DNA of 64,000 nt. Origin: Halorussus limi. GTDB taxonomy: Archaea > Halobacteriota > Halobacteria > Halobacteriales > Haladaptataceae. Positions 410-3,607 of the stretch are shown one piece after another. The DNA is taken from assembly GCF_023238205.1 (NCBI RefSeq), contig NZ_CP096659.1:2745626-2809625 (forward strand), written 5' to 3'. Under the pieces are notes generated by a model. The model had not been told where the DNA came from. It saw only the letters and a program-made list of their open reading frames with translations, and did not search any database. Numbering within the stretch: position 1 is the stretch's first letter; every line of letters begins with the position of its first letter. The position numbers and the translations under genes were made by a program.

Positions 410-444
410 TTTAAGTAGTTCTGGCGACAAGGGGTAGATACGAG
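410..444 (+). repeat. rpoeps-flanking element, copy 1 (promoter-like)
   Basis: 35-nt element starting TTTAAG, containing CTGGCGACAAGG and ending GATACGAG. It differs from copy 2 at three positions. TTTAAG is a plausible TATA box and GATACG lies where the transcription start would be expected. It is followed by the inverted repeat ACGAGG / CCTCGT (440-459). Confidence 0.75.
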
Positions 445-540
445 GGAAGACGGCCTCGTTCTACGGGACGCTATTCACCAGACGCCGGTCTCTCGCCTCG
501 GAAAGTAGAAGGAGAATCGTCGTCGCTACGCCGGTCTCCG

Positions 541-575
541 TTTAAGTGCTTCTGGCGACAAGGGATAGATACGAG
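541..575 (+). repeat. rpoeps-flanking element, copy 2 (promoter-like)
   Basis: Same element as copy 1 and oriented the same way. It is identical to copy 4 (minus strand) over 34 nt. It is followed by an inverted repeat GAAGA / TCTTC (576-596). Confidence 0.75.
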
Positions 576-658
576 GAAGATTCGTTCGCGGTCTTCTGCG
601 GTTTTCGTCTCTTTGTGTACTCACGCTCCGCAGTCCCTACTCCTCACACGCCACTCCA

Positions 659-1405
659 CTACTCCTCGTGAGCCTCGTCCGCCCGGCGAGCGTCGAGACT
701 CGGCAGGTTGGGGTCTCGGTGGGGGTTCCGACCGTAGACGGCGTCTTCGAGGTGCTGGTCGGTGAGTTGGTCTTTGAGCGTTCGCCGGAGTCGGTTGAGG
801 CTAGTCACGTCGAGACCGTGTTTCTCGACGAGGTCCGTGAAACGCTGTTCGTCGGTGATAGAGCGGAACTGGTCGTAGAGGTCTCCGAGTCGGTCCGGCG
901 GGAGTTGGCCGATCCACTCCTCGTCGTGGAGGCCGAGGTAGTGTTCGCGCTCTCGGTCCACGACGTGGCGGATGACGACCAGCGCGACCTTCGGAATCGC
1001 GCGCTGGCTTCCGAACGCAGTCAGGTCGAGGTCCGACATGATGCCGACCACGCGGTCGCGCTGCCACGGCGTCAGCGAGAGGTCGTTACAGAGCGCGTGG
1101 GAGATGCGGAGTTTGTCGAGGCGGTGCATGCGCGAACTGTGACCCGCCATCGCGGAGTGTCGCTCCTCGTGCATCCGGCGGACGCTCTCCGAGAGGTCGG
1201 CGTCGGGCGATTCGGCGCGGCCGATTTGGGTCGCGCTCGGCGTGACTGGCCCCCACTGGCGGACCGTCTGGTCGCGCTGGAGGTCCGCCCGGCCGACCGC
1301 CCCGTCGCCGGGGCGCTGGCTGAGCGGTCGGTCGGCGTTCCGGTCGTCGTGCGTCCTCGACTGCCACGTCGGCAGTTGCGAGTCCGTCCACCCCTCGGTC
1401 ATCAC
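659..1405 (-). CDS. rpoeps: DNA-directed RNA polymerase subunit epsilon (haloarchaeal)
   Basis: 248 residues. The N-terminal ~60 residues are polar and variable-looking. From about residue 80 the sequence is dense and helical, with the stretches LRISHALCNDLSLTPWQRD, SDLDLTAFGSQRAIPKVALV and GLHDEEWIGQLPPDRL, which I recognise as the halophile-specific RNA polymerase epsilon family. The protein copurifies with haloarchaeal RNA polymerase; its role is not settled, and a helical cyclin-like fold is an inference. Homologues appear to begin near the QRDQTVRQWGPV segment, so the start may be later than the ATG at 1405. The TATA of copy 3 (1537-1542) predicts a start of transcription near 1510 and a leader of about 100 nt. 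Two more copies of the same element face the gene from its 3' side. The assignment rests on family memory, not on a search. Confidence 0.72.
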   Translation of the reverse strand: MMTEGWTDSQLPTWQSRTHDDRNADRPLSQRPGDGAVGRADLQRDQTVRQWGPVTPSATQIGRAESPDADLSESVRRMHEERHSAMAGHSSRMHRLDKLRISHALCNDLSLTPWQRDRVVGIMSDLDLTAFGSQRAIPKVALVVIRHVVDREREHYLGLHDEEWIGQLPPDRLGDLYDQFRSITDEQRFTDLVEKHGLDVTSLNRLRRTLKDQLTDQHLEDAVYGRNPHRDPNLPSLDARRADEAHEE

Positions 1406-1507
1406 TCGCCCGTACTCGGCGGGGATAGTTCAAACATGCGCCTCTCGGGAAGGTGAGAAGACGCGTCGCTCCTCGAAAACGAATCCAGTAGAACGGGCCG
1501 TCGTTCC

Positions 1508-1542
1508 GTCGTATCTACTCCTTATCGCCAGAAGCACTTAAA
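1508..1542 (-). repeat. rpoeps-flanking element, copy 3 (likely rpoeps promoter)
   Basis: Minus-strand copy of the 35-nt element. TTTAAG lies at 1542-1537 and the predicted transcription start is near 1510. It is followed by the inverted repeat GAACG / CGTTC (1506-1491). As the copy nearest the 5' end of rpoeps and in the right orientation, it is the best candidate for its promoter. Confidence 0.75.
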
Positions 1543-1676
1543 GAGGAATCGTAGCGGAGACGCCCTGTCTATTCGGTCGCGTGTTTGAAGTCCGTAGTTC
1601 AGGGTCACGCAGAACGAGGCACGCCGGCGCGGGCGCTATTCGGAAACTTGAGTCGGCAGAACGTCGCGCACTTTCC

Positions 1677-1711
1677 GTCGTATCTATCCCTTGTCGCCAG
1701 AAGCACTTAAA
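1677..1711 (-). repeat. rpoeps-flanking element, copy 4 (promoter-like)
   Basis: Minus-strand copy, identical to copy 2 over 34 nt although the two lie 1.1 kb apart in opposite orientation. It is followed by a longer inverted repeat CGGAAA / TTTCCG in the leftward direction. Confidence 0.75.
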
Positions 1712-1788: not shown

Positions 1789-2355
1789 CTACTGGTCGTC
1801 CTCGTAGAACTCCGCGCGCAGGTCGTCGTCGTCCAGCGTTCCGGCGGTGTCCGAGAGTTGAGTCCGGAGTTCGGCCAGTTCCTCGGTGAGGTCCGCGTAC
1901 TCCTCGTTGGCGTCGAGTTCCTCGGGGCTCTTCTTGGTCTCCAGAGCGGCCTTCTTGTTGGCCAGCGAGAGGAACTGCTGCATCTGTGCGTCGTAGGTCG
2001 AGCGCTTGAGCAGCGTCTCGACGGTTTCGAGCAGTTCCTCCGCCTCCGAGACTGGCTTTTCGAGGTAGGCGTCGAAGCCGAGTTCGAGGATGTCGAAGTC
2101 GGGTTCGACCGCCGAGACCAGCGCCACCCGGCAGTTGAGTCCCTGTTCGTGAATCCGCGCCAGTACGTCCTCGCCGGAGAGGTTCGGCATCCGGCGGTCG
2201 AGGAGGACCACGTCGACCTCCTCGTCCAGTTTTTCGAGCGCTTCCGACCCGCTGTAGGCGGTTCGGACGTGGTAATCCTCTTCGAGCCACTGGGCGTAGG
2301 CGTCGGTTATCGGCTTCTCATCGTCGACTATCAGCACTGTAGCGTCCTTAGGCAT
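1789..2355 (-). CDS. HalX-domain response regulator
   Basis: A receiver domain (about residues 5-110) is followed by a HalX domain (about 115-185). Receiver residues are all present: the acidic pair in VDDE, phosphoacceptor Asp53 in VVLLDRRMPN, Ser81 in LVSA and Lys100 in YLEKP. The C-terminal half, with FLSLANKKAALETKKSPEEL, is the haloarchaeal HalX helical domain, which has no known DNA-binding motif. An ATG 39 nt upstream (2394) extends the frame, but a TTTAAC TATA-like box at 2406-2412 predicts transcription starting near 2383, inside that extension, so I chose 2355. Such proteins take phosphate from PAS/histidine kinases; none lies in this window. The next gene on the same strand encodes a DUF7504/winged-helix protein. 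Confidence 0.9.
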   Translation of the reverse strand: MPKDATVLIVDDEKPITDAYAQWLEEDYHVRTAYSGSEALEKLDEEVDVVLLDRRMPNLSGEDVLARIHEQGLNCRVALVSAVEPDFDILELGFDAYLEKPVSEAEELLETVETLLKRSTYDAQMQQFLSLANKKAALETKKSPEELDANEEYADLTEELAELRTQLSDTAGTLDDDDLRAEFYEDDQ

Positions 2356-2497
2356 ACTTGCGATATCGCTCGCACTCCGTGATGATTCACTCATACTCCC
2401 TCGATGTTAAACTGGCGTCTCGCAGCGTTCGGCGACTGCGTCCGGACGCTGGTTCGATTCGCCGAGTCGTCGCGCGGTCGGCGGCGAGTTGTCGTCG

Positions 2498-3607
2498 TCA
2501 TCTGTCGGTCGTCTCCTGTTCGAAGGGCGATTTGGCGGTCTCCGGTTCGTAGCCGCTCAGGAAGACGAGGTTGCCGCGGCCGACCTGTACCCGGGTGATG
2601 AGACCCTTCTCCTCCATCTTCGACAGTTTCCGGCTGACGGTCGACTTCGACCAGTCGGTCTCCTCGGTCACGTCGGCCTGTTTCATCCGGCCGCCGTAGC
2701 GGGTCAGCAGTTCGCGGATGCGGTCCTCGTCCGTCAGCATCGCCTCCTCGGGGAACTGCTCGACGTTCGACTCGCGCGCGGACTGGTCGTCCGACGGCGT
2801 CGACTCGACGGTATCGCTCCCGGCGGTCGTCTCCGGTGAGTCGGTCGTGGCCGCGGAGCGGTCGGTACCGTCCGCCCCCGAGAACAGGTTCGACACCGAA
2901 CTCAGTACGGACGTGAACAGGCCGCCGTCGGAGTCCGGAACCGAGACGTCGGTGTCGTGAGACTGGGCGTGGTCGCTTGTCGCGCTCCGGTCGCCGTAGG
3001 TCTCGGCGACGGACCACTCCTCGCCGTCGTCGGAGACCTCGACCACGGCGTCGAACAGCGTCTTCAGCGTGTTGATGGTCTCCTCGTCGTGGATGTCCGG
3101 GTCCATGTGGTAGAACCCGATGGCGTTGGCCGCCTGTACCCGGTGGGTGAGGATGTGCAGGTACCGGAACGCTGTGTCGAAGTCGACGTACTCCAAGAGG
3201 ACGGTCAGCGTCTGTACCGACACGAGCGTCTGGTTGCCGTTCCCCTCCCAACGGGTCAACTGTTCGCTCAGCGGCGCGATGATGTCCATCGGCTGGTTCG
3301 GATCGACGCGCGCGACCGACACGTTCGGCGGGACCTCGTTGCCGGCGGGTCCCTCGTCGGTCTCGACCGTGTTCGCGTGGATGAACGCGAGTTCGGCCGG
3401 GAGGTCGCCGACGTGCGCCGTCCAATCGGAGATCCACGTCTCGGGCGGCGGCGTGTACGTCACTGCGGCGACGTTGGCCTCGTCCGGTTTCGTCGTCGAG
3501 GCGAGCAGTTCGAGACAGGCGCGATTTCCCGTCGGCGTCAACGGTGCCAGTAAGAGGACGTTCGATGACTGGTCCAGTTGCCGCTTGTCCGATGTATCGA
3601 TGTTCAT
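2498..3607 (-). CDS. DUF7504-type protein with C-terminal winged-helix domain
   Basis: 369 residues in three parts. The N-terminal ~200 residues form an alpha/beta domain, starting with NVLLLAPLTPTGNRACLELL, that resembles the haloarchaeal DUF7504 (RecA/GvpD-like) family. Residues ~205-280 are a Ser/Asp/Thr-rich low-complexity linker. The C-terminal ~80 residues form a MarR/IclR-like winged helix, with RIRELLTRYGGRMKQADV, DWSKSTVSRKLSKMEEKGLI and a wing RVQVGRGNLVFL. It is probably a cytoplasmic transcription regulator. Two further DUF7504-like proteins lie at 22334-22864 and 58895-59653; the latter shares the FDAVVEV segment but has no winged helix. CTTAATAT near 3696-3703 is a possible TATA box, with a leader of about 65 nt. 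Confidence 0.75.
   Translation of the reverse strand: MNIDTSDKRQLDQSSNVLLLAPLTPTGNRACLELLASTTKPDEANVAAVTYTPPPETWISDWTAHVGDLPAELAFIHANTVETDEGPAGNEVPPNVSVARVDPNQPMDIIAPLSEQLTRWEGNGNQTLVSVQTLTVLLEYVDFDTAFRYLHILTHRVQAANAIGFYHMDPDIHDEETINTLKTLFDAVVEVSDDGEEWSVAETYGDRSATSDHAQSHDTDVSVPDSDGGLFTSVLSSVSNLFSGADGTDRSAATTDSPETTAGSDTVESTPSDDQSARESNVEQFPEEAMLTDEDRIRELLTRYGGRMKQADVTEETDWSKSTVSRKLSKMEEKGLITRVQVGRGNLVFLSGYEPETAKSPFEQETTDR

Follow-up and report, generated by a model that had tools for sequence, protein, structure and literature searches.

A conserved promoter-like element that accompanies the gene of RNA polymerase subunit epsilon in haloarchaea, and a predicted TFB-like fold of the subunit as its putative reader

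The window, which denotes the entire stretch of 64,000 nucleotides from Halorussus limi that was subjected to analysis, contains close to its beginning the gene rpoeps, encoding subunit epsilon of the RNA polymerase (RpoEps), with two copies of a promoter-like element on either side. Further along, the gene is neighboured by a HalX response regulator (1789–2394, minus strand) and a DUF7504/DUF7343 winged-helix protein (2498–3607, minus strand). The features of the locus, together with the matches of the element in the remainder of the source genome, are as follows:

410..445, plus strand: element copy 1 (TTTAAGTAGTTCTGGCGACAAGGGGTAGATACGAGG), oriented towards the rpoeps 3' end, predicted start at about 440
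541..576, plus strand: element copy 2 (TTTAAGTGCTTCTGGCGACAAGGGATAGATACGAGG), likewise oriented towards the rpoeps 3' end, predicted start at about 571
659..1405, minus strand: rpoeps, RNA polymerase subunit epsilon, 248 amino acids, start codon either GTG at 1405 or ATG at 1402
1424..1438, minus strand: weak candidate for an ordinary TATA-like site proximal to rpoeps (TTTGAAC, located about 30 nt 5' of the ATG)
1507..1542, minus strand: element copy 3 (TTTAAGTGCTTCTGGCGATAAGGAGTAGATACGACG), in sense orientation to rpoeps and a candidate for its proximal promoter
1676..1711, minus strand: element copy 4 (TTTAAGTGCTTCTGGCGACAAGGGATAGATACGACG), in sense orientation to rpoeps and a candidate for its distal promoter
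C1:2744365, plus strand: exact match outside the window, 1.3 kb before its start
C1:2897738, minus strand: exact match outside the window, located 125 nt 5' of a gene for a UbiA-family prenyltransferase
C1:529518: weak seventh match in the source genome

The four copies of the element are all present at the positions and on the strands proposed in the first-pass annotation, and the described identity of copies 2 and 4 over 34 nt was borne out (sequence TTTAAGTGCTTCTGGCGACAAGGGATAGATACGA). Copies 1 and 2 match by 92% over 36 nt, as do copies 3 and 4 over 39 nt. Copy 4 is located 169 nt upstream of copy 3, whose start at about 1512 would leave rpoeps with a leader of about 110 nt, and a U-rich stretch (about 600–615) is found 3' of copy 2. 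It had also been stated that the window holds no further copy, and a search with the core CTGGCGACAAGG at zero or one mismatch indeed returns these four places only, while at up to two mismatches the 10 matches in the window are near the number expected by chance (mean 7.3). In the source genome of 4.62 Mb, we found six exact matches to the consensus, namely the four of the window and two elsewhere, one of which (C1:2744365) lies upstream of a BAAT/thioesterase-like gene whose end corresponds to position 389 of the window. An origin of the element by chance or as an artefact of GC content is excluded by a control with the reversed pattern, which gave 0 copies in 292 genomes.

An alignment of diverse copies defines the consensus TTTAAGT nn YTCT S G Y n AYAA S G nnn, followed by a start region that reads either AGATAY or CGTAGT-like and subsequently by purines and a TTCT-rich stretch, with TTCT/TTTTC tracts being enriched 10–35 nt past the predicted start. 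Of the extent of 35 nt that was originally ascribed to the element, the conserved interval was confirmed, but conservation continues beyond this limit into the purine-rich and TTCT-rich sequence past the predicted start. Judged from the spacing to the TATA-like box, this start would reside near position 31 of the element. Compared to the canonical haloarchaeal core promoter (with a BRE CGAAA, a TATA box TTWT and WW at –10), the element shares a TATA-like TTTAAG located about 27–30 nt before a purine at the presumed start, whereas it does not contain a BRE of the CGAAA type, the motif proposed for haloarchaea (PMC4983044), and instead carries 15–20 additional conserved bases that extend from the TATA box to the start and into the transcript. 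The CGAAA-type BRE upstream of the TATA-like box is missing in almost all copies, and the bases directly 5' of TTTAAGT are pyrimidine-rich with at most 15% A at positions –4 to –1. The conserved stretch matches the span that would be covered by an initiation complex downstream of TATA.

In a scan for exact matches of the core in one genome per species, matches were found in Halobacteria only, in members of Halobacterium, Halorussus, Halococcus, Halocatena, Haladaptatus, Actinarchaeum, Halomicrococcus, Saliphagus and unnamed Halobacteriales. The element is ancient. It is rare, with 1–15 copies per genome rather than hundreds at unrelated sites, and it is kept across many haloarchaeal genera along with its placement at rpoeps, all in line with the earlier proposal that the whole interval from TATA to start is under selection. 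The core was also detected in two viral contigs of IMG/VR (L173, L174); with just these two, we rejected the idea of a virus-borne element.

The arrangement around rpoeps follows a general pattern, where in most of the genomes containing the gene and examined at the locus, at least one copy is located upstream on the same strand, usually 90–300 nt before the start codon. Tandem copies are frequent (spacing 108–160 nt, median 129 nt) and copies are often also found upstream of the gene preceding rpoeps. The copy nearest to rpoeps is located about 116 nt from the start of the gene in Halobacterium and several further genera, and in Halococcus-type genomes with several rpoeps genes, copies are found near the individual genes. 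Four genomes of the family f8 (G209, G250, G256, G327) contain two to three rpoeps genes each, with element copies nearby. Several genomes contain in addition an ordinary TATA-like site about 30–37 nt before the rpoeps start, and the weak candidate at 1424..1438 of the window was read in this way by analogy with TTTAAACC and TTTATTCC found at the same place in Halobacterium. In close relatives of the source organism, the element is present around rpoeps and its placement is conserved. The inward-pointing bracket, which had been the central observation of the first-pass annotation, recurs within the window's family, where inward antisense copies downstream of rpoeps were found in every genome examined at the locus (L020, L028, L081, L108–L112; in L110 at a distance of about 3.2 kb from rpoeps), but the general pattern consists of sense copies upstream and of unlinked copies elsewhere. 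Outside of this family, inward antisense copies are nearly absent, with the exception of L086, where the sole element copy at the locus is an inward antisense one. The bracket is thus largely a lineage feature added to the general rule.

The relationship between element and gene becomes manifest in their co-occurrence. Allowing for up to three mismatches, the element was detected in 95 of 292 genomes, all of which (95/95) contain rpoeps, and in none of the 169 genomes lacking the gene. With the profile R1, the element was found in 120 of 123 genomes with rpoeps and again in 0 of 169 without, and a sensitive scan of 35 relatives devoid of rpoeps gave matches at chance level, none below an E-value of 0.02. 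In an extended set of 391 genomes, 157 contain both, 230 neither, three only rpoeps and one only the element; the 99 newly added genomes among them account for 37 with both, 61 with neither and the single case with the element only. Two of the exceptions (G165 and G178) contain a derived 45-nt form of the element in four copies and one copy, respectively, and a third (G180, rpoeps only) encodes a very divergent RpoEps on a long branch. The genome with the element only (G357) is an 87%-complete Halobacterium draft, whose element positions agree within about 1–2 nt with those on a contig of Halobacterium sp. CBA1126 (L033), where a transposase-like reading frame, called by eye, starts shortly past the last element at the place where rpoeps would be expected, and where the contig ends. 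In G357, the rpoeps region thus appears to be cut by an insertion sequence. These genome counts are inflated by relatedness, and a cautious view admits one contrast per family that holds both states, which leaves six taxonomic families (f2, f3, f5, f7, f8, f9), all of which agree (6/6). Full agreement was also found within the genus g33, where two genomes (G195, G226) contain both and four (G060, G134, G201, G216) neither.

The element is not confined to the vicinity of the gene. Of 203 copies located in 39 genomes containing rpoeps, 104 have an rpoeps gene within 10 kb and 99 do not, the latter being distributed over 29 of the 39 genomes. Were the element no more than the promoter of rpoeps, some genomes lacking the gene should contain unlinked copies, and none were found there, such that linkage alone does not account for the co-occurrence. 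We searched for a common function of the targets of unlinked copies and found none; on crude gene calls, targets vary by lineage and include UbiA in Halorussus-type genomes, a DsbA-like protein in Halobacterium and GNAT proteins in others, and many copies have no coding gene just downstream. In G226, six to seven copies (L114, L115, L119–L122) each face the 3' end of a paralogue of a TRAM-domain gene at about 100 nt, which reflects either duplication of the locus or a shared antisense arrangement.

On a tree of 59 RpoEps proteins, the label of the taxonomic family requires 11 changes, indicating that rpoeps has probably moved between lineages. Plasmid-borne rpoeps genes are found in Halorussus vallis, Halorussus halophilus, Halococcus dombrowskii and Halocatena salina (plasmid records NZ_CP100002, NZ_CP044526, NZ_CP095010 and NZ_CP096020). 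On the same tree, the type of initiator (AGATAY or CGTAGT-like, with types termed A and B) requires two changes, and a single RpoEps clade is formed by 18 of the 19 genomes of type B, drawn from three families. Unlinked copies carry the type of their own genome, being all B in G031, G128, G204, G214, G215, G239 and G266 and all A in G046, G050, G077, G087, G089, G132 and G213. Such co-variation of the initiator type points to a trans-acting reader that either is RpoEps itself or travels with it.

The window protein shares 79% full-length identity with a protein of Halorussus vallis classified in RefSeq as DNA-directed RNA polymerase subunit epsilon and 58% with the homologue of Halobacterium salinarum (in L038). 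It belongs to the same family as epsilon of H. salinarum (OE_1279R), which was described just as an extra subunit of enigmatic relevance that enables transcription of native templates (PMC8305020). In Halobacterium, epsilon was found by biochemistry to be physically part of the RNA polymerase, and the purified enzyme containing it transcribes native templates efficiently, unlike polymerase without epsilon, its role still being termed enigmatic in 2021 (PMC8305020). A general role of this kind in transcribing native DNA need not involve any special promoter.

Sequence searches of RpoEps against Pfam, NCBIfam and the PDB gave no significant match, including none to Pfam TFIIB, and neither did a comparison with alignments of TFB by hhalign, with and without remote paralogs; one remote paralog shows a sub-threshold match to Pfam TFIIB (E 0.025). 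An AlphaFold model based on 44 homologues displays an all-helical domain, confident at residues 90–220, which constitutes a single fold of about 130 residues. A Foldseek search with this model returned weak matches to cyclins, TFIIB and Brf2. In VIA-align with residues 88–220, the first 17 matches are TFIIB and Brf proteins, aligned at their first cyclin repeat with Z-scores of 10.3–11.6 (best match: Z 11.6, 2.3 Å over 97 residues), followed mostly by cyclins, where it should be considered that a Z near 11 can reflect an arrangement common among helical folds. The archaeal TFB 1d3u scores at Z 9.7, and for a remote paralog with about 30% identity, modelled separately, the first 28 matches are TFIIB, Brf and TFB. 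What we claim from these models is a predicted TFIIB-like cyclin fold of RpoEps, and not its membership of the TFB family. The predicted core is nearest to the first cyclin repeat of archaeal TFB and eukaryotic TFIIB and Brf, with which RpoEps would share the recognition of promoters within the initiation complex. In contrast to these proteins, it has no detectable sequence homology to TFB/TFIIB, no zinc ribbon (as no CxxC pairs are found) and a single cyclin fold in place of the two repeats, and it has become known as a polymerase subunit. The source genome harbours about 14 genes of the TFB type on the chromosome and on plasmid-like contigs.

RpoEps also matches phrog_12649, a haloarchaeal virus and plasmid family of unknown function (E 1.3e-6), as do most of the remote paralogs tested, while a search of phage records with RpoEps gave no match. 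This remote RpoEps-like family (L213–L226), whose members are sometimes annotated as epsilon, is found on small haloarchaeal plasmids and at other sites and shares the same predicted cyclin fold. Its members differ from RpoEps in being remote (about 30% identity) and, with several on small plasmids, in having no element linked to them in our analysis.

From the copies, their conservation, placement and co-occurrence with rpoeps, the co-variation with the RpoEps clade and the match of the model fold, we infer transcription from the elements, RpoEps as the factor that binds them and a direction of regulation. In complexes of TFB, TBP and DNA, the second cyclin repeat of TFB reads the upstream BRE and the first is placed over DNA just downstream of TATA. 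A fold predicted to resemble the first repeat and promoters that lack a BRE but are conserved downstream of TATA would thus make a coherent match. We regard it as probable that RpoEps acts as a TFB-like promoter-specificity factor, which reads the DNA past the TATA box and drives both its own gene and a few other sites. The elements would in this case define an extended class of core promoters, spanning about –30 to +15 and dependent on subunit epsilon, with a layout consisting of a TATA-like TTTAAGT devoid of the usual purine-rich BRE, followed by the blocks YTCT, SG and AYAASG and the start region. RpoEps would join the initiation complex and, replacing the normal recognition of the BRE, read the blocks located between TATA and start. 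Copies 3 and 4 would serve as promoters of rpoeps and thereby confer autoregulation by RpoEps, a small set of other sites would be driven likewise, and the ordinary TATA-like site near the rpoeps start could provide a basal level. In the window's family, copies 1 and 2 would give rise to transcripts directed towards the 3' end of rpoeps, which could limit its expression, with feedback of either sign being conceivable. Two of the original suggestions, a site for a specific factor and feedback on a polymerase subunit, fit well with the evidence, with transcription in either direction being presumed.

The properties of the element could also be accounted for by an ordinary TATA promoter overlapping with the operator of a conventional regulator, which controls rpoeps and few other genes and was gained and lost together with rpoeps, in which case RpoEps would not be the reader of the DNA. 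Archaeal repressors often bind at the position of the conserved blocks, conservation of the whole interval is silent on the identity of the protein that reads it, and both co-occurrence and co-variation require just some trans-acting factor whose phyletic distribution and history equal those of rpoeps, such that a co-lost DNA-binding regulator would leave the same pattern of co-occurrence. We nevertheless consider this explanation rather unlikely, since the element is not a palindrome, since an additional hypothetical protein would have to track rpoeps through repeated transfers and losses, and since the missing BRE in almost all copies suggests altered contacts of basal factors rather than a simple operator.

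Still less probable, in our judgement, is that the elements serve as promoters for a family of small RNAs, either non-coding or antisense, which act on rpoeps and other mRNAs. Such a role would be consistent with the many copies that are not closely followed by a coding gene and that are oriented towards the 3' end of a converging gene, as in case of copies 1 and 2 of the window and the six to seven TRAM-domain-facing copies in G226, and with the TTCT/TTTTC tracts 10–35 nt past the presumed start, which could end transcription early. Against it stands the absence of a conserved transcribed body past about +20, where the base composition is near background, a folding that is no better than that of shuffled sequences (mean z 0.07), a search of Rfam with the sequences past the presumed start that gave no match, and the location of other copies at roughly 90–260 nt in front of coding genes (rpoeps, UbiA, DsbA-like, GNAT, SfsA). 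The family of small RNA genes that had been offered as an example in the first-pass annotation is therefore not supported. Finally, we give very little credence to a mobile or recently duplicated cassette transferred horizontally with rpoeps, whose copies would be remnants without shared function, since despite the plasmid-borne rpoeps genes in several species, the conflict between tree and taxonomy (11 family changes) and the tandem and inverted arrangements, the copies listed have just about 36–50 nt in common, with no sequence shared outside of this stretch, always extend from the TATA-like box to near the presumed start, reside within flanks that differ among copies and genomes, and are under constraint across a class of archaea with initiator types that shift in concert at unlinked sites.

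The preferred interpretation of RpoEps as a reader of these promoters can be extended to a broader one, towards which we lean only slightly, where epsilon is a TFB-like initiation factor with a single cyclin fold, which accompanies the polymerase and determines a promoter class of its own by reading the DNA from TATA to the start site, with factor and promoters together forming a sigma-like, horizontally transferable and autoregulating module. We found no prior description of the element in open-access papers, where subscription papers may differ, and in open-access papers also no description of a cyclin fold or a promoter class for epsilon. Alternative initiation factors of archaea with promoters of their own are of a known kind, whereas epsilon as such a factor, together with its promoter class, appears to be new. 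The element provides epsilon with a concrete and testable set of promoters, and the co-variation between the type of promoter and the clade of the protein offers natural pairs for tests of swapped specificity. If epsilon reads these elements, archaea would possess a specificity factor that is borne by the polymerase, outside of the set of TFB and TBP proteins, with an autoregulated and transferable regulon.
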